Shown here piece after piece: positions 1,781 to 64,000 of a stretch of 64,000 bases of DNA (within the stretch, counting starts at the first letter, position 1; each line of letters starts with the position of its first letter). The position numbers were made by a program, and so were the translations under genes. The notes below the pieces were generated by a model. The model saw only the letters and a program-made list of their open reading frames with translations. It was not told the DNA's origin and ran no database searches. Source of the DNA: Bradyrhizobium sp. dw_411. Its GTDB lineage: Bacteria > Pseudomonadota > Alphaproteobacteria > Rhizobiales > Xanthobacteraceae. The stretch is from NCBI RefSeq assembly GCF_018449695.1, contig NZ_JAAVUY010000003.1:186001-250000 (forward strand), written 5' to 3'.

Positions 1781-3178
1781 TTAGCCGCGCCGCGCCGACG
1801 TCAGGAAATTGCCGCGCCATGCGACCAGGGCAGTGGCGATGGCCGAGAAGGCAATCTTGCCGAGGAGCCAGATCAACGGCTGCGAAGGGACAGCGCAGAG
1901 CGATCCGATCAACAGCGCCGCCACACTCGCCGTCGCCACCAGCGACCATCGCGGAACCGCTCCAAATCGGAGGATCGGACCACTCGCAAACAGCATGACA
2001 ACAGCGGTCGCGATTGCCGCTCCCGCGAGTACGTTTGAAGATGGCAAGTTCAAAGCCACGGCAGCTACCGAGAAAATCGAAACCATCACGAACTGACCCG
2101 CTGCAACCACGACCAGCCGGACCGCCGATTTCTTCAAATGCGGGACCACGGCGAGCGTGGCCTGAAGGTGAGTGTGGAGGAAGTAAAATACGGCAGCCAT
2201 TGGTGCGGCAACCAGGAAGCCGTCCAGAATGTCGGGAGGAACGAAAAGGCGTCCCGCGTCCGGAAGGAATGCAATGAGCCCGCCCAGCATCACGACAGTC
2301 GCGCAGATGACGAATTCGAACAATCGGGCCGCGACCTGTTTCGCGTCATTGGGGTTACCGTGCTCGAATGCTACGATCACTTCCGGATAATTCACCGTAT
2401 GAATCGCCGCGACCAGCACCGCGAACGGCCGCTGCATCAGATCGATCGCCATTGAAAATCCGGCGCTGGCGGCAAGGCCGGCCGCGCCAAGCTTGCTGAT
2501 GACGATGAAGCGGATCATCACCGGCACCGAAAGATGAATCACGGAAGCGCCCGCGGCGAGCATGCCGTAGCGGCAGAAATTCGCCCAATCCGCCAGCATC
2601 GTTTGCCGGGACACTCTTCGCAGCGGTGTGCGATGAATGATCAGGCCGGTAATGAGGGCTGCGATCTGGCCGCTCAGGATGCCAAAAAGCGTCGCTTCGG
2701 TGGTTCCATAGAGCAGCGCGCCGGTGATGGCGCCCGCCAGCAGCAGGCTGGCGCGCAGGATCAGCAAAATCGCTGCGGTCCCGAGCCGGCCCGAGACGCG
2801 GATCACCATGAAGGACATATCGGTGAAGCCCTGCAGCACCGACAAGGCAAGTCCGAGGACGACAACCCTCAGCGCCAGCGTGCTGGCCAGTGAGGCGACA
2901 CCGCCGAAAGAAATCAGGGCAAACGCGCTAAGCAATCCTGCGGCAAACAGCGAAAAGCGGAGCTTCGCGGCGTCTTCTCCCTTTGCTGCGGCGAGGAAGC
3001 GAACACCTGCCAATTGCAGCCATTCGAACATCAGAACGCAAAGCAACTGGCTCGAAGCCAGAGCGAGCGAAAACGACGTGTAGTGGGCCGGCAGCAGGAT
3101 ATGACTGACGGCGAAGATGAGAACGATCGCCGTGGCGCTCTGATAGATGTAACCGACGAGTGCAAGGAGCCGGATCAT
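1781..3178 (-). CDS. Wzx-like polysaccharide flippase, MATE/PST superfamily
   Basis: This 465-aa protein is almost wholly hydrophobic, with about twelve to fourteen predicted membrane segments starting at residue 3 (LLALVGYIYQSATAIVLIFA). Length and topology match O-antigen or exopolysaccharide flippases, which move undecaprenyl-linked repeat units across the inner membrane. It is the last gene of a co-directional run: outer membrane lipoprotein, glycoside hydrolase, two GT4 transferases, flippase. The upstream spacer is 86 bases. No polymerase (Wzy) is obvious nearby. Function is inferred from topology and context; the family assignment is reasonable but not residue-level. Confidence 0.7.
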   Translation of the reverse strand: MIRLLALVGYIYQSATAIVLIFAVSHILLPAHYTSFSLALASSQLLCVLMFEWLQLAGVRFLAAAKGEDAAKLRFSLFAAGLLSAFALISFGGVASLASTLALRVVVLGLALSVLQGFTDMSFMVIRVSGRLGTAAILLILRASLLLAGAITGALLYGTTEATLFGILSGQIAALITGLIIHRTPLRRVSRQTMLADWANFCRYGMLAAGASVIHLSVPVMIRFIVISKLGAAGLAASAGFSMAIDLMQRPFAVLVAAIHTVNYPEVIVAFEHGNPNDAKQVAARLFEFVICATVVMLGGLIAFLPDAGRLFVPPDILDGFLVAAPMAAVFYFLHTHLQATLAVVPHLKKSAVRLVVVAAGQFVMVSIFSVAAVALNLPSSNVLAGAAIATAVVMLFASGPILRFGAVPRWSLVATASVAALLIGSLCAVPSQPLIWLLGKIAFSAIATALVAWRGNFLTSARRG

Positions 3179-3264
3179 ATCTGATCTGGTCTATGTCGGA
3201 GCCGCTGCCGATATGGGAGCAGGGCGCAAGTCATGGCGTCTTTGATTTGCCGGATCACTTGAAG

Positions 3265-4464
3265 CTATTTCTTCGGTTGCCGCACGCGGTCGAACAGATT
3301 TCGATATTCGGTCACCACGTCGGGGAAGGTCCATTTATTCGGAGCGTTGGCTAACCGCTCGCTGATGTCAGCAATCTGTTGCGGGTTTTCGATGATCTCC
3401 AGAATGCTTCGGGTCATCGATTCCGGATCGGCCGCCGTCAGCCAGCCATTGACGCCGGGCTGAATGGCTTCCGGCATGCCCCCGAAATGCGTTCCGAGAA
3501 TGGGCCTGCCGGCCGCGCTGGCGTCCGCCACCACCAGCGGACCCGGATCTTCCCAGATCGACGGCGCAACCGCGACATCGACTTGCGCATAGAATTCTTC
3601 GGGCGAAACAAAACCTAGAAATTCGATCCGGGCGTCAGGCGCCAACTCTTTCAAGCGCTGCTGTTCGCTTTCGCTCGCGCGCCCTGCGATCACGAGCCGG
3701 ACCTTGTCCTTTGGGATAGCGGCAAATGCCCGGACGAGATTATCGATCCCCTTTTCGACCGTCAGCCGCCCGATGAATCCGAATGTGATTTCGGCGTCAG
3801 CCCGCACACGTATCTGGGGTTTCAATGTCGCCGTTGAGGCGTTGCGAATGACGGTGCGTAGCGGCGTATCCGAAAACAGGCCGAGCCTGGTATGAATATC
3901 GAGAACCCGCTGGCTCACACCGACGACCGCGTGCAATTGACGCGTGGCGCGCTTTCGATTGATCGTCAGGATTTCGCAACTGAAGCACGTCCGCTCGCAG
4001 GCGTGCCCCGCCATGAAGCGCGAGCATCGCGGGCACGTCAGGTAATAATCGTGAAGCGTGTGCACGACAGGCACGTTTTGATCGAGTGCCGATTTCCAGA
4101 TCGCGGCCGTCAGGCCCGACAAATTGTTGGAATGCATGCAATCCGGTTTGAAGGCCTGTATGCGTTTCGAAACCAGTGTCGCCGAGCTTTGCCAGTCTTC
4201 GATCGCGTGCCAGATGCCGCGCACGGGTGCACTTCGAGGCTCGGAGAAGGGAGGATAGATATTTTGAACCGGCGCCGAATAGACGGTCACGCCGTTGCAT
4301 TCTTCCACCGGCTGGTCACGCTCGGTTTCGGCGCGGACCACTTCCACGGTATCGCCGGCTTCCACGAGACTCTCTGCCAGCCGGCGTGCAAATATCTCCG
4401 CGCCGCCGACAATCTTCGGCGCTCCCGGCGTCGGGTAGATGGATGATGTTATCAGGACTCTCAT
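3265..4464 (-). CDS. GT4 family glycosyltransferase
   Basis: The 399-aa protein has the two-Rossmann-fold GT-B layout: N-terminal acceptor half beginning MRVLITSSIYPTP with a GGAE motif near residue 20, and a donor half from about residue 225 (FGFIGRLTVEKGIDNL). A cysteine-rich insert (TCPRCSRFM, CERTCFSC, residues about 140-165) is shared with the neighbour at 4528-5712 and is seen in several GT4 enzymes. The usual E-x7-E donor motif is altered: the segment reads WEDPGPLVVAD, with no second Glu at the canonical place. It probably adds a sugar to the lipid-linked repeat unit at the inner membrane. Sugar and acceptor cannot be told. Confidence 0.85.
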   Translation of the reverse strand: MRVLITSSIYPTPGAPKIVGGAEIFARRLAESLVEAGDTVEVVRAETERDQPVEECNGVTVYSAPVQNIYPPFSEPRSAPVRGIWHAIEDWQSSATLVSKRIQAFKPDCMHSNNLSGLTAAIWKSALDQNVPVVHTLHDYYLTCPRCSRFMAGHACERTCFSCEILTINRKRATRQLHAVVGVSQRVLDIHTRLGLFSDTPLRTVIRNASTATLKPQIRVRADAEITFGFIGRLTVEKGIDNLVRAFAAIPKDKVRLVIAGRASESEQQRLKELAPDARIEFLGFVSPEEFYAQVDVAVAPSIWEDPGPLVVADASAAGRPILGTHFGGMPEAIQPGVNGWLTAADPESMTRSILEIIENPQQIADISERLANAPNKWTFPDVVTEYRNLFDRVRQPKK

Positions 4465-59076: not shown

Positions 59077-60093
59077 TCATGCAAAAGCGGGCGCGTTCGC
59101 CTTTGCCGGCGGGCTGGCATCGCGCAATCCGGCGATCTGCGCGCGCTGAACGATCAAGGCCAGCACGGTGTCGAGCGCCGGGGTAGGGGTCTGCGTCAAT
59201 CGGCCCATTTCCTGAACCACGGAGACCAGCGGGTCGATTTCCATCGGGCGCCCCCGTTCCAGATCCTGCAGCATCGAGGTCTTGTGCGCGCCGACCTTGC
59301 GCGCGCCTTCGATCCGCCGCTCGATATCGACCCGGAACCTGACGTCGAATTTTTCGGCGATGGTCTGGGTTTCCTGCATGATGGCTTTCGACAGCGCACG
59401 CGTTGCCGGATCGGAGCAGATCACATCGAGTGTGGCGTGGGTCAGTGCGCTGATCGGATTGAGGCAGACATTGCCCCAAAGCTTGAGCCAGATTTCGTCA
59501 TGAATGCGCTCCAGCACCGGCGCCTGCATGCCGGCCTCCGTGAACAGCGCGGAAAGCCGCTCCACGTCGGGACTCTTCTCGCCCGAGGGTTCACCGATCG
59601 GGAAGCGGTTGCCATAGACATGGCGGATCACGCCGGGCGCTTCGATCTCGGTGGCGGGATAGACGATGCAGCCGATGGCGCGCTGCGGGCCCAGTTCGTG
59701 CCATTGCCGGCCGCCGGGGTCGATGCTCTCCAGCGTCGAGCCTTCGTAGCGGCCGCCATGCTTGTAGAAATACCAATAGGGAATGCCATTGACCGCCGTG
59801 ACGATGCGGGTGTGCGGCCCGAGCAATGGCTGCATCGTTTCAATCACGCCGGTGATGGAATGGGCCTTCAGGCAGATGATGACGAAATCCTGATGCCCGA
59901 GTTCGGCGGGATTGTCGGTGCAACGCGGATGCACCACGCGCTCCTCGTCGTCGATCAGGAGTTTGAGCCCGTTGGCGCGCATGGCGGCGAGATGCGCACC
60001 CCGTGCGACCAGGCTGACATCGGCGCCTGCGCGCGCGAACTGTACCCCGAGATATCCGCCGATCGCGCCGGCGCCGTAGATGCAGATTTTCAT
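59077..60093 (-). CDS. 2-dehydropantoate 2-reductase-like protein (PanE/ApbA family)
   Basis: ATG 60093, with GAGGGACGCC before it, gives 338 aa beginning MKICIYGAGAIGGYLG, the NADP-binding fold. The catalytic Lys lies in IWLKLWGNVCLNPISALT, followed by Glu-containing segments of the C-terminal domain (RGRPMEIDPLVS). The family includes ketopantoate reductase for pantothenate synthesis, but this group has several PanE-like paralogues, so the substrate may differ. It lies between the quinone reductase-like gene and the CBS-domain gene, on the same strand. Confidence 0.85.
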   Translation of the reverse strand: MKICIYGAGAIGGYLGVQFARAGADVSLVARGAHLAAMRANGLKLLIDDEERVVHPRCTDNPAELGHQDFVIICLKAHSITGVIETMQPLLGPHTRIVTAVNGIPYWYFYKHGGRYEGSTLESIDPGGRQWHELGPQRAIGCIVYPATEIEAPGVIRHVYGNRFPIGEPSGEKSPDVERLSALFTEAGMQAPVLERIHDEIWLKLWGNVCLNPISALTHATLDVICSDPATRALSKAIMQETQTIAEKFDVRFRVDIERRIEGARKVGAHKTSMLQDLERGRPMEIDPLVSVVQEMGRLTQTPTPALDTVLALIVQRAQIAGLRDASPPAKANAPAFA

Positions 60094-60198: not shown

Positions 60199-60630
60199 TC
60201 AGGCGGGAACGGATCGTTCCGTCGCGGTCGCTTCGTCGTCGAACGCGGTTGAAATGTCGCGGATGCTGATGACGCCGATCAGGCTGTAATTGTCGATCAC
60301 GGGCAAATGCCGGATGTGGTGCTTGTTCATGAGATGACGAACATGTTCCAGCGTGTCGGTCGCTGCACAGGAAACCAGTTGCCCCACTGAGATCAACTGC
60401 GAAATCTTCAGATTGACGCCGGCGGCGCCGTGCTCGGCGATAGCGCGCACCACGTCGCGTTCGGTGAACATGCCCGCCGCGGTGTTACCCTCGGTGCGAA
60501 CGACATCCTTCACCACCAGCGCACTGATATTGCTGGCGCGCATCAATTGAGCGGCGATGGCCACGGTCTCATTCATTCGAACGGTCGCGACGCGGGCAGT
60601 CTTCTTGCGCAGGATGTCTTCGACTTTCAT
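60199..60630 (-). CDS. Two-CBS-domain protein
   Basis: ATG 60630 has a very strong site, GGAGGAGGCA, and gives 143 aa. Two CBS modules cover about residues 5-62 (VEDILRKKTARVATVRMNETV, FTERDVVRAI) and 76-132 (CAATDTLEHVRHLMNKHHIRHLPVID, GVISIRDI). CBS pairs bind adenine nucleotides and report energy state. One copy of the oxalate-block dyad lies 48 bases upstream of its start, so it may be co-regulated with oxlT and frc. Confidence 0.88.
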   Translation of the reverse strand: MKVEDILRKKTARVATVRMNETVAIAAQLMRASNISALVVKDVVRTEGNTAAGMFTERDVVRAIAEHGAAGVNLKISQLISVGQLVSCAATDTLEHVRHLMNKHHIRHLPVIDNYSLIGVISIRDISTAFDDEATATERSVPA

Positions 60631-60677: not shown

Positions 60678-60697
60678 CTGGTATACATTATTCCAAT
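60678..60697. promoter_or_regulatory. Oxalate-block dyad motif, copy A
   Basis: CTGGTATACATTATTCCAAT. It fits the shared pattern TGGTAT-N5-ATKCCA and lies 48 bases upstream of the CBS-domain gene start. Confidence 0.5.
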
Positions 60698-60806
60698 TGT
60701 CAATTTAATATCACAAGTAATTTCCGACATAAAGCGGCAGTAATGCTGACGTTTTACGACTATGCACGTCCGCGTGCCTTGACTGAGTGGCAGCAAAAAT
60801 CGTTTA

Positions 60807-60826
60807 TTGGTATTTTGTATTCCAAT
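60807..60826. promoter_or_regulatory. Oxalate-block dyad motif, copy B
   Basis: TTGGTATTTTGTATTCCAAT, 110 bases beyond copy A and 177 bases upstream of the CBS-domain gene start. The outer arms ATTGG and CCAAT pair as well. It matches copy A at 15 of 20 positions. Confidence 0.45.
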
Positions 60827-60836
60827 GGAAGAGGGC

Positions 60837-60868
60837 AAAAAAAGAGGCGTACCGGGGCACGCCTCTTT
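60837..60868 (-). terminator. Rho-independent terminator of oxlT
   Basis: AAAGAGGCGT (60841-60850) and ACGCCTCTTT (60859-60868) form a 10-bp stem with an 8-base loop. Read on the minus strand the stem is followed by seven T residues, 23 bases after the oxlT stop. Confidence 0.85.
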
Positions 60869-60890
60869 CCTGGATTTTTGCTGACGAAGG

Positions 60891-62204
60891 TCAGGCGGCT
60901 CTGACGTCTCGCGCTCTGGCGTCCGACGTCGCTTCATTGCCGAGGATGAACGCGCGCCGCATCGGCTTGATGACGAACAAGGCCAGCAGCGCCGCGGTGG
61001 CGTTGAGCGCAACGGCGATCACGAACACGGCCTGCCAGCCGTAATGCGAGGCGACCAGGCTTGCCAGCGGCACCAGCAGCGAGGCGGTGCCTTTTGCCGT
61101 ATACAACATGCCGTTGTTGGTGGTTGCGAATTTCGAGCCGAACGTGTCGCCGCTGGTCGCCGGAAACAGGCTGTAGATCTCGCCGAACACGCCGAAATAA
61201 ACCGCGGTCGCCAGCACGAAGACGATCGGTATGTGACCGTATGCCGAGAGCGTCAGCAGCATGATGGCGGCGGTTCCGAACGCGATGAACATCGTGTGTT
61301 CGCGTCCGATCGTGTCGGAGACCCAGCCGAAAAACGGCCGGCCGAAGCCGTCGAAAATACGGTCGAGCGAAATCGCAAAGGTCAGCGCGGCCATCTGGAA
61401 GCCGGCGATGCTGACCGGTTCATTGTCGATCTTGAAGTCGTGAGCGATCGGCGCAATCTGCGCCGCCGTCATCAGGCCGCCAGCCGCGACCATCACGAAC
61501 ACCAGATACATCATCCAGAAGATCGGGCTGCGCAGGACCTGCGGCGGCGTGAAGTCGATTTTGGTCTGGGGAAGATTGAGCTGCTTCTTCTTCGGCGGCA
61601 TTGCCTGTGACGGTTTGCGCAGGAGGAAGGCAAGCAGGCAGACGATGGCGCCTTGTCCGATGCCAAAGGTGAAGAACGCGCTCTGGTAGCCGCTCGCCGC
61701 AATCATGTTCGCGATCGGCACCACGGTAATAGCCGCGCCCGCGCCGAAGCCGGCGGCGGTAGCGCCGGCGGCCAGGCCGCGGCGGTCGGGAAACCATTTG
61801 AGGGCATTGCCAACGCAGGTGCCGTACACCGAACCGGCGCCGATCCCGGCGATGATCGCGGAGATATAGAGCAGCACCAGCGAGTCGGCGTAGGAATTCA
61901 TGACCCAGGCGATGCTGATCATGATGCCGCCAAACATCACGACGACGCTCGGGCCATATTTATCGACAAACCATGCCTCGACCGGCACCAGCCAGGTTTC
62001 GGTCACTACGAAAAGCGTAAAGGCGAGCTGGATCGCGGCGCGGCCCCAGTGATATTTCGCGTCGATCGGATCGACGAACAGCGTCCAGCCATATTGCAGG
62101 TTGGCGATCATCGCCATGCAGACGATGCCCATCGCCAATTGCAGCCAGCGGAAGTGCTTGCCTTCCGCCATTGGGGTCGCCGTGGTTTGTGGTGTGGCGG
62201 TCAT
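60891..62204 (-). CDS. oxlT: Oxalate/formate antiporter, MFS family
   Basis: A 437-aa protein with twelve predicted membrane segments, starting at ATG 62204 after GGGAGGGACC. The first loop, PIDAKYHWGRAAIQLAFTLFVVTETWLVPVEAWFVDKYGP pattern (about residues 47-86), is characteristic of OxlT-like carriers, as is GIGAGSVYGTCVGNALKWF. The family exchanges oxalate for formate across the inner membrane. Position beside frc supports the role. A terminator follows its stop and a dyad motif lies 58 bases upstream of its start. Confidence 0.88.
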   Translation of the reverse strand: MTATPQTTATPMAEGKHFRWLQLAMGIVCMAMIANLQYGWTLFVDPIDAKYHWGRAAIQLAFTLFVVTETWLVPVEAWFVDKYGPSVVVMFGGIMISIAWVMNSYADSLVLLYISAIIAGIGAGSVYGTCVGNALKWFPDRRGLAAGATAAGFGAGAAITVVPIANMIAASGYQSAFFTFGIGQGAIVCLLAFLLRKPSQAMPPKKKQLNLPQTKIDFTPPQVLRSPIFWMMYLVFVMVAAGGLMTAAQIAPIAHDFKIDNEPVSIAGFQMAALTFAISLDRIFDGFGRPFFGWVSDTIGREHTMFIAFGTAAIMLLTLSAYGHIPIVFVLATAVYFGVFGEIYSLFPATSGDTFGSKFATTNNGMLYTAKGTASLLVPLASLVASHYGWQAVFVIAVALNATAALLALFVIKPMRRAFILGNEATSDARARDVRAA

Positions 62205-62261
62205 GGTCCCTCCCGTGGCACGCCCTCTGTTTTTATATGGGAGCGTTGCCGTCTGCGCATA

Positions 62262-62281
62262 TTGGTATGTGATATGCCAGA
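62262..62281. promoter_or_regulatory. Oxalate-block dyad motif, copy C
   Basis: TTGGTATGTGATATGCCAGA, 58 bases upstream of the oxlT start. The core TGGTAT-N5-ATGCCA is intact; GCATAT and ATATGC around it form a further dyad. Confidence 0.5.
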
Positions 62282-62370
62282 GCGCAAGTCATATTATGGC
62301 TGGGGACCTTGCGCGTTCAATATGCCGCAGTCTAGGGCGCAGGATAGGTCTTGCGCGACAAAATGCAGGC

Positions 62371-62397
62371 AAAAAAAGACCCCAGAAAACCGGGGTC
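62371..62397 (-). terminator. Rho-independent terminator after the 45-aa gene
   Basis: GACCCC (62378-62383) pairs with GGGGTC (62392-62397) around an 8-base loop; on the minus strand seven T residues follow (62371-62377). It lies 65 bases after the stop of the small gene at 62462 and before the oxlT promoter region. Confidence 0.75.
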
Positions 62398-62461
62398 GAG
62401 GCTGGGAGGATTGGTCTAGGGCAGTGTCGGGCGGCCGGTTAGATAACGGTCGCAACGCTTG

Positions 62462-62599
62462 TCAGAGCCCGAAATAGGGAGTGTCGCCGTTGCGGATAGC
62501 GATGCGGGCGCTGGCCATCAACAGGCGGTCAATGGTCGCCATCAGGCGGCCGAACAAAGTGGGGGAAGGCACGAGGCCGAAGGCGGCGGTCTTGGACAT
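62462..62599 (-). CDS. Small basic protein (45 aa) in the oxalate block
   Basis: ATG 62599 to TGA 62462. The product begins MSKTAAFGLVPSPTLFGRL and ends RIAIRNGDTPYFGL; it is slightly basic, with an amphipathic middle (RLMATIDRLLMASARIAIR) and no membrane segment. Support comes from AAAGAGAACCG before the ATG, its own rho-independent terminator downstream, and a dyad motif 46 bases upstream like those of oxlT and the CBS gene. I recognise no family. Confidence 0.6.
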   Translation of the reverse strand: MSKTAAFGLVPSPTLFGRLMATIDRLLMASARIAIRNGDTPYFGL

Positions 62600-62644
62600 A
62601 TCGGTTCTCTTTGCGGGTCAGCAGATCAAGTGTTGTCCATAACT

Positions 62645-62664
62645 TAGGTATACCAGATGCCAAC
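62645..62664. promoter_or_regulatory. Oxalate-block dyad motif, copy D
   Basis: TAGGTATACCAGATGCCAAC, 46 bases upstream of the 45-aa gene. It keeps GGTAT, AT and CCA of the shared pattern and also contains the perfect palindrome GGTATACC. Confidence 0.45.
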
Positions 62665-62827: not shown

Positions 62828-64000
62828 TTATTCGGCGGCGACTTTGCGCGGCGGGTCGAGTGCGCCGGAATCATGGATCTCGGCCACCTGATGGTCGCTG
62901 AAGCCGAGAACCTGACGCAGGATTTCGTCGGTGTGCTCGCCGAGCAACGGGGAACGCTTCACCTCGGTCGGGCTGTCCGACAGCTTGATGGGATTGCCGA
63001 CCGACAGATATTTGCCGCGCTCGGGATGATCGACTTCGACCACGGTGCCGGTCGCGCGCAGCGACTGGTCTTCCGCCAGTTCTTTCATCGACAGGATCGG
63101 ACCGCAGGGAATGTCGTCCTTGTTGAGAATGTCCATCGCCTCGAACTTGGTCTTGGTCATGGTCCACTGTTCGATGCGCGCGAAGATCTGGTTCAGGCGC
63201 GACAGCCGGGCCGGAGGCTTGGCGTAATCCGGATGGGTCTTCCAGCCGGGTTCGCCGATGATATCGCAAATCTTCTCCCAGACCGGCGCCTGGGTGATGA
63301 AGTAGATGTAGGCGTTCGGATCGGTTTCCCAGCCCTTGCATTTGAGGATGCGGCCCGGTTGTCCGCCGCCGGAATCGTTGCCTGCGCGCGGCACGGCATC
63401 GCCAAACGGAATGCCTTCACCGAACTGGCTGTATTCCTTGAGCGGGCCATGGGCGAGGCGCTGCTGATCGCGCAGCTTGACGCGCGCAAGGTTCAAGACA
63501 CCATCCTGCATCGCGGCGGTGACTTTTTGTCCCTGGCCCGTGACCGTGCGCTGATAGAGCGCGGTGACGATGCCGAGCGCCAGATGCAATCCGGTGCCGC
63601 TGTCGCCGATCTGCGCGCCGGTGACCAGCGGCAGGCCGTCGCGGAAACCGGTGGTGGACGCGGCGCCGCCGGTGCACTGCGCGACATTCTCATACACCTT
63701 GCAGTCCTCGTAGGGACCGGGGCCGAAGCCCTTGATCGACGCGACGATCATCTTCGGGTTGATGGCGTGAATCTTTTCCCAGGGGAATCCCATGCGGTCG
63801 AGCACGCCGGGACCGAAATTTTCCACCAGCACATCGCAGCTCTTGATCAGCGCGGTGAGAACTTCCTTGCCCTTTGGATTCTTGGTGTCGAGCGTGATCG
63901 AGCGCTTGTTGTGGTTGAGCATGGTGAAATACAGGCTGTCGACATTGGGGACATCCTGCAACTGGCCGCGCGTAATGTCGCCGACGCCGGGTCGCTCGAC
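62828..64000 (-). CDS. frc: Formyl-CoA:oxalate CoA-transferase (5' end outside window)
   Basis: The frame is open to the right edge; about 390 codons are present and roughly 30 to 40 N-terminal residues are missing. A class III CoA-transferase, it keeps [20 protein letters not shown]-like text near the edge, [38 protein letters not shown], and the catalytic Asp in [17 protein letters not shown]. The [17 protein letters not shown] and [15 protein letters not shown] blocks match Frc of Oxalobacter formigenes closely. It moves CoA from formyl-CoA to oxalate. Oxalyl-CoA decarboxylase would be expected just outside the window. Confidence 0.95.

Follow-up and report, generated by a model that had tools for sequence, protein, structure and literature searches.

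The window analysed here is a stretch of 64,000 nucleotides from the 7.3-Mb genome of Bradyrhizobium sp. dw_411 (G000:C23:186001-250000), and toward its end lies a block of oxalate genes preceded by copies of a short DNA dyad. The block includes genes for a panE-like reductase, a CBS-domain protein, the oxalate/formate antiporter OxlT, a conserved protein of 45 amino acids (aa), and the formyl-CoA transferase Frc. Beyond the window end follow the rest of frc, oxc, and a gene for a GntR/FCD transcription factor (gntR); these three minus-strand genes are separated by 79 and 87 bp. The oxc product scores above the TIGR03254 cut-off. Divergent from gntR stands an acyl-CoA synthetase-like gene (ADP-forming), which reached no family cut-off and is adjoined in this genome by an IclR-family gene. 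On the evidence presented below, the dyads are in all likelihood operators of the GntR/FCD protein, with repression as the best reading of its role.

The dyads of the oxalate block and their probable regulator

A first-pass annotation of the window had described four sites with a shared pattern on the plus strand. They are indeed in place: YWGGTAT-N5-ATKCCAR occurs without mismatch at four positions of the window and nowhere else in it (60678, 60807, 62262, and 62645, plus strand), and 10 of 20 positions, read from the sequence letters, are invariant among them. The claim that three of them lie 46 to 58 bases upstream of the CBS gene, oxlT, and the 45-aa gene also holds when the distance is counted from the end of the core to the start codon (Table 1). 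Of the proposed consensus, the dyad pattern stands, whereas the ATKCCA half is particular to these four copies; the motif is the symmetric dyad TGGYAT-N5-ATRCCA. The remaining core, in the gap between oxlT and the CBS gene, is either an auxiliary site or chance; in two genus loci, L070 (one mismatch) and L064 (two mismatches), a counterpart precedes the CBS gene by about 200 bp. Taken alone, the window gives modest evidence for the motif. Scanning it with GGTAT-N5-ATNCC and up to one mismatch returned 22 matches against 6.8 expected (sd 3.0), a count reached in none of 100 shuffles, the scan patterns being derived from the sites themselves and hence partly circular.

The annotation was also right that the window holds no regulator gene, as the GntR/FCD gene lies 2.0 kb past its end. 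The dedicated regulator that it had proposed, perhaps of the GntR/FCD type, finds support in the presence of such a gene within the block, preceded by two perfect dyads. The encoded protein has an N-terminal GntR winged helix-turn-helix (Pfam PF00392, 1.1e-12, 47.9 bits vs 27) and a C-terminal all-helical FCD domain (PF07729, 7.1e-21). A structure model of a 94-96% relative (mean pLDDT 85.7, pTM 0.76) has the FCD structures 7u5q, Atu1419, PmiR, and TM0439 as its best fold matches, and the ligand set of the FCD pocket, N144, H148, H192, and H214, which is invariant in 46 orthologues, forms a predicted metal site. The closest named relatives of the regulator belong to Bradyrhizobium. It was found in 144 of 146 genus genomes, and at E <= 1e-60 no genus genome has more than one close match.

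Table 1. Coordinates of genes and dyads (window numbering unless a contig is given; distances of dyads are from core end to start codon)
Feature	Position	Strand	Remarks
panE-like gene, 2-dehydropantoate 2-reductase family	59077..60093	-	NF005089, 530 bits (cut-off 223)
CBS-domain gene	60199..60630	-	143 aa from its ATG; Pfam CBS 1.7e-21; first gene downstream of the 60679 dyad
Dyad core upstream of CBS gene	60679..60695	.	open form TGGTATACATTATTCCA; 48 bp from start codon
TTGACA (-35-like) box	60698..60703	-	2 bp upstream of the dyad in CBS gene direction
Second dyad core, oxlT-CBS gap	60808..60824	.	between oxlT stop and CBS gene; 177 bp from CBS start
oxlT, oxalate/formate antiporter	60891..62204	-	TIGR04259, 638 bits (cut-off 335)
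Dyad core upstream of oxlT	62263..62279	.	open form TGGTATGTGATATGCCA; 58 bp from start codon
45-aa conserved protein gene	62462..62599	-	pN/pS 0.41 over 18 sequences
Dyad core upstream of 45-aa gene	62646..62662	.	AGGTATACCAGATGCCA; 46 bp from start codon
frc, formyl-CoA transferase	62828..64000, runs on to G000:C23:250105	-	TIGR03253, 741 bits (cut-off 504); cut by window end
GntR/FCD regulator gene	G000:C23:252012-252704	-	Pfam GntR + FCD; head of the gntR-oxc-frc run
Two identical dyads	G000:C23:252794 and 252865		TGGCATACCAAATGCCA; between gntR and the divergent acyl-CoA synthetase-like gene
Dyad upstream of formate dehydrogenase operon	C34:311145		TGGCATACCAAATGCCA, same 17-mer as the gntR pair; 38 bp upstream
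Dyad upstream of sucC			TGGTATATGGTATGCCA; own genome, 50 bp upstream
Second sucC-like copies, family genomes	G229:C5:89527, G169:C1:1431618, G208:C1:2552756, G161:C9:98962, G187:C1:3556986

The predicted regulon and its conservation

The sites, their placement, their conservation, and their co-occurrence with the regulator gene were all computed from genome sequences. In the dw_411 genome, the less circular pattern TGGYAT-N5-ATNCCA gives 15 matches (8 forward, 7 reverse) at ten distinct places, and the reversed control gives none. The genome-wide density of the motif is tied to regulon genes, since seven of the ten places, the 177-bp CBS site included, precede oxalate genes, the formate dehydrogenase operon, or sucC; three fall inside open reading frames (called by composition). 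The formate dehydrogenase operon encodes a NuoE/NuoF-like beta subunit (fdsB) followed by an alpha subunit (TIGR01591, 724 bits; cut-off 666). In 13 genus genomes, the same pattern matches 184 times (91 forward, 93 reverse) and its reversed control 10 times. Among 24 selected family genomes, the 12 with the regulator yield 76 forward matches and the 12 without it, defined as having no match at E <= 1e-55, yield 9, with 2 and 3 reversed-control matches, respectively, over both strands.

Sites are likewise kept upstream of orthologous genes, and the two outcomes that the annotation had named as refuting its reading are thus both contradicted by the genomes. We compared 21 genus loci, that of dw_411 and 20 picked by hand from the 144 genomes with the regulator, and 38 family and order loci also picked by hand; some records recur between sets (L192/L069, L194/L159, and L245/L173), so that the loci are not all independent. 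The site tables omit weak sites far from a gene and sites inside matched genes (in the genus-locus table, only those with mismatches), and per-gene counts refer to loci that hold the gene. An exact dyad stands 60-110 bp upstream of gntR in all 21 genus loci, at individual distances of 79-96 bp, and a second one 140-190 bp upstream in 20 of them, the exception being L071, in which no synthetase-like gene was found. Dyads precede the CBS gene (11/11, up to one mismatch), oxlT (10/11, up to one mismatch), and the 45-aa gene (11/11, up to two mismatches). Formate dehydrogenase is similarly consistent, with a site 38-72 bp upstream of fdsB in 21 of 22 genus loci (up to two mismatches; 17 exact) and an exact site 41-82 bp upstream in all six fdsB genes found among 17 family genomes. 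For sucC, a site lies 29-59 bp upstream in 18 of 23 genus loci (17 exact), which makes sucCD an unusual, 'surprise' member of the predicted regulon in this genus.

Outside the genus, named relatives with regulator identities down to about 42%, including Rhodopseudomonas, Methylorubrum, Ancylobacter, Azospirillum, and Roseovarius, again have the site next to the regulator and Oxc or Frc. Among 53 distant loci that hold Oxc or Frc and a regulator of 40% identity or more, a dyad lies within 350 bp upstream in 23 (exact) or 34 (up to one mismatch), where shuffling predicts 0.03 and 0.60, respectively. Dyads were found in 3 (exact) or 4 (up to one mismatch) of 8 loci with a regulator at least 40% identical and no Oxc or Frc, and in 1 or 2, by the same measures, of 19 loci with a regulator less than 40% identical. 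As a separate observation, TGGAATATTGTATATCA stands upstream of oxc in the Paraburkholderia and Caballeronia loci L202, L205, and L208, perhaps as a drifted, possibly beta-proteobacterial variant of the operator.

It is conceivable that a different protein binds these sites, for example another FCD paralogue or the product of the IclR-family gene next to the acyl-CoA synthetase-like gene. The IclR gene adjoins the block in dw_411, operators of IclR proteins can likewise take the form of inverted repeats, and the genomes hold many other GntR candidates. However, IclR is present in only 8 of the 21 genus loci, on which ground we rejected it as owner of the sites, whereas the GntR gene with its conserved dyads is present in all 21; where IclR is absent, and in other families, the dyads still accompany the GntR gene. 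The single close GntR match per genus genome and the scarcity of dyads in family genomes without a match also speak against a different protein, and we regard any other regulator as quite improbable.

The remaining genes of the block add some detail to this picture. The panE-like gene and the CBS gene lie on the same strand with a 105-bp gap and are probably co-transcribed. The panE-like product would be an oxalyl-CoA reductase; ApbA2 of Cupriavidus is described as able to act as a CoA-acylating glyoxylate dehydrogenase (PMC7486775). No Pfam or NCBIfam match was obtained for the 45-aa protein, which, judged by its pN/pS ratio, is under purifying selection. In two genus loci, a TctCBA tripartite transporter is located in the oxalate block (L067, 12570-16036; L073, 14654-18129; Pfam for L067) with a one-mismatch dyad about 325 bp upstream, which suggests an alternative or additional carrier. 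In L080, a second OxlT-like MFS gene (2411-3786) lies between the CBS gene and oxlT with its own upstream dyad, TGGTATATTATATTCCA, one mismatch from TGGYAT-N5-ATRCCA. Five family genomes have a second sucC-like gene about 6-9 kb from the regulator (Table 1), and one-mismatch dyads precede three of five such copies fetched (seven found). Because of this location, the second copies suggest that a SucCD-type enzyme works in oxalate metabolism.

Two geometries of one half-site

In the 21 genus loci, TGGYAT/ATRCCA arms occur as inverted pairs at spacing +5 (58 pairs, the open dyad) and -2 (43 pairs, a compact palindrome) and as direct repeats at +1 (53). From -4 to 25, no other arm spacing is seen more than twice, and no other inverted spacing more than once. 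These counts bear on the possibility that the dyads are chance or structural inverted repeats with no regulatory role, to which the window itself lends something, as a scan with up to three mismatches shows no excess there (20 found vs 19.98 expected) and such loose matching is uninformative. Against it stand the reversed controls in the 13 genus genomes, the concentration of arm spacings at two values, the constant spacing to start codons across many genomes, and the shuffle expectation at the 53 distant loci; we therefore rejected chance, which has a practically negligible likelihood.

The CBS and oxlT sites consist of the open dyad alone, the compact 10-bp palindrome being present in 0 of 21 genus sites. 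Their geometry thus differs from the compact, GGTATACC-like palindrome that the first-pass annotation had in mind, and the compact palindrome was rejected as the sole criterion for the operator. The gntR, fdsB, and sucC sites carry a third arm in the spacer, which creates compact TGGYATRCCA in 79 of 80 genus sites. The 45-aa gene sites retain the direct repeat in 11 of 11 and have lost one outer arm; in dw_411, AGGTATACCAGATGCCA has one outer arm weakened and the direct repeat retained, a weakened form of the three-arm operator. Exact sites upstream of the regulator in 99 further loci were open only in 13, compact only in 11, and both in some combination in 36, with neither in 39; hence neither geometry is universal. 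The open dyad seems to be the element common to the exact sites of dw_411, and both forms seem usable. A possibly related case is locus L250 of Priestia abyssalis, which contains two copies of TGGCATGCCACATGCCA (6960 and 9065), one just upstream of an FCD regulator that is 31% identical, and in which no oxc or frc was detected; there, a different pathway may make use of the same three-arm operator.

The FadR-subfamily operators described in PMC4494728 offer a useful comparison. They have TKGT/ACMA boxes, as do the sites here, and additional half-sites at 7-12 nt from the centre of the palindrome, comparable to the third arm of the gntR, fds, and sucC sites at about 9 nt from the compact centre. 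The subfamily GT-AC distance of 2-3 nt is found in the gntR, fds, and sucC sites (79/80) but in none of the 21 genus CBS and oxlT sites, where it is 9 nt and no compact palindrome exists. The open dyad alone is outside this FadR-subfamily consensus. Exceptions to the distance, NanR and BioR, are on record (PMC4494728), and the membership of the protein is not decided thereby. NanR of E. coli, as described in PMC8012715, is likewise an FCD-type GntR repressor with GGTATA-like half-sites in a non-canonical arrangement. However, NanR binds three direct repeats, whereas the arms here are inverted and a direct repeat occurs only in the three-arm form. NanR also has a 32-residue N-terminal extension for cooperativity, and none was noted in the present regulator, for which no dedicated test of cooperativity was made.

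Probable repression of oxalate genes and its alternatives

The position of the dyads relative to the putative promoters is informative. TTGACA lies directly upstream of the dyad, in gene direction, in 11 of 11 CBS and 20 of 21 gntR regions, and the oxlT regions have TTG-starting boxes in this place. In front of the fds operon of dw_411, inspection by eye gives TTGGCA-N17-TAGAAT, with the -35-like box formed by a dyad arm. Because the dyads abut or overlap -35-like boxes, we favour the GntR/FCD protein as a repressor acting at these operators, a reading that we hold to be highly likely from the sequence data.

Binding, repression, and the effector are what we infer, as follows. When inducer is absent, dimers of the regulator would bind TGGYAT-N5-ATRCCA dyads adjoining or overlapping the -35 box and spacer of each promoter and exclude RNA polymerase. 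The DNA would be released once oxalate itself or a product of it (oxalyl-CoA or glyoxylate, for instance) occupies the FCD pocket at the predicted metal site; as a metal-chelating dicarboxylate, oxalate would be the first candidate ligand. Release would permit joint expression of oxlT for uptake, CBS-panE for assimilation, and gntR-oxc-frc with the acyl-CoA synthetase-like gene for activation and decarboxylation, together with the 45-aa gene, formate dehydrogenase and, in this genus, sucCD.

The same protein could instead be an activator whose ligand-bound form recruits RNA polymerase. FCD proteins are able to activate, and CitO, which acts at citrate genes, is termed an activator in PMC6608401. 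A further point in its favour is that, by eye, no good -10 box stands out in the gntR and acyl-CoA synthetase promoters. Activator sites are usually located upstream of the -35 box, whereas the dyads here lie directly downstream of TTGACA or form the -35-like box itself. Since a protein bound at those positions would block RNA polymerase, activation is disfavoured, and we consider it unlikely.

Beside the lack of good -10 boxes, several observations weigh against repression through a conserved dyad. The 45-aa gene sites are exact in 0 of 11 genus loci. No dyad with up to one mismatch was found within 350 bp upstream of the regulator in 19 of the 53 distant Oxc/Frc loci, and the further loci with neither exact form belong here too. 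Nor is sucC a general member, as no site precedes 5 of the 23 copies in the genus or 16 of the 17 main copies in family genomes (4 of those 17 genomes lack the regulator). In B. diazoefficiens, Frc (Bll3156) and Oxc (Bll3157) are reported as more abundant on arabinose, in the cytoplasm-enriched fraction, and the arabinose route in this organism passes through glyoxylate; both proteins are present on mannitol too (PMC5996035). Because of the latter, control would not be all-or-none. Frc and Oxc are also reported as expressed in nodules (PMC4926349). In a table of a nasT study, bll3150 (oxalate:formate antiporter) and blr3159 share a change of -2.02 (PMC6759348); from the gene numbering, blr3159 would be the acyl-CoA synthetase-like gene.

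The proposed repression by the GntR/FCD protein has a close parallel in Atu1419, a VanR-type FCD repressor of Agrobacterium fabrum (PMC7797058, PDB 6za3), which is likewise a GntR/FCD protein and is among the best fold matches. According to PMC7797058, its zinc site is composed of one Asn and three His, the same residue types as in the pocket of the present regulator; one of its palindromes is placed between the -10 and -35 elements; and a divergent promoter region holds two of them, in an arrangement alike to that seen here. In contrast, the Atu1419 operator is the compact 10-mer ATGTATACAT, and the element shared here is a 17-bp dyad; its two sites are 190 bp apart vs about 81 bp; and it controls hydroxycinnamate genes, not oxalate genes (PMC7797058). 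In 34 of 37 loci with two exact sites, 79-83 bp separate the dyads of the pair upstream of gntR. In dw_411 the distance is 71 bp, one helical turn below the usual 81, but 99 and 132 bp also occur, and helical phase is not taken as a sign of looping. Looping like that of Atu1419, by a tetramer that bridges two operators, might be read into the 79-83 bp spacing, which would be equally explained by divergent-promoter geometry.

In the literature searched, mostly without subscription papers, we found no description of a dedicated GntR-type oxalate regulator; an earlier description elsewhere is possible. The words 'GntR', 'regulator', and 'repressor' do not occur in the oxalate-pathway paper PMC12927642, nor does 'oxalate' in the main text of the FadR-subfamily review (PMC4494728). 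CstR of Methylobacterium is not the same regulator, being described as a CheY-like response regulator (PMC13344952). As a class, a local catabolic regulator with its operators is ordinary; what makes this one unusual is its pair of operator geometries and its extension to SucCD.

Succinyl-CoA can serve as the CoA donor for oxalate. A further idea, which we find somewhat doubtful, is that one FCD regulator reads the two geometries of the same half-site as a gene-set code, with sucCD included for CoA donation. If true, oxlT and CBS-panE (uptake, assimilation) would carry the open 17-bp dyad alone, while gntR-oxc-frc, the acyl-CoA synthetase-like gene, fds, and sucCD (activation, decarboxylation, energy) would carry the fused three-arm operator; the two gene sets would respond at different inducer levels, and SucCD would supply succinyl-CoA as the CoA donor for oxalate activation.

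The predicted regulon of the GntR/FCD oxalate regulator is well supported, and in a large group of soil- and plant-associated bacteria one regulator very probably governs the uptake and breakdown of oxalate as well as the oxidation of formate. The bacterial breakdown of oxalate matters for soil carbon and pH, for plant-fungus interactions and, where gut bacteria are concerned, for kidney stones. The predicted operator and gene list make the control of oxalate metabolism directly testable in a laboratory Bradyrhizobium, tie the 45-aa protein, the CBS-domain protein, and SucCD to oxalate, and offer possible parts for an oxalate sensor. They also provide an example of a single transcription factor that apparently works with operators of two geometries.

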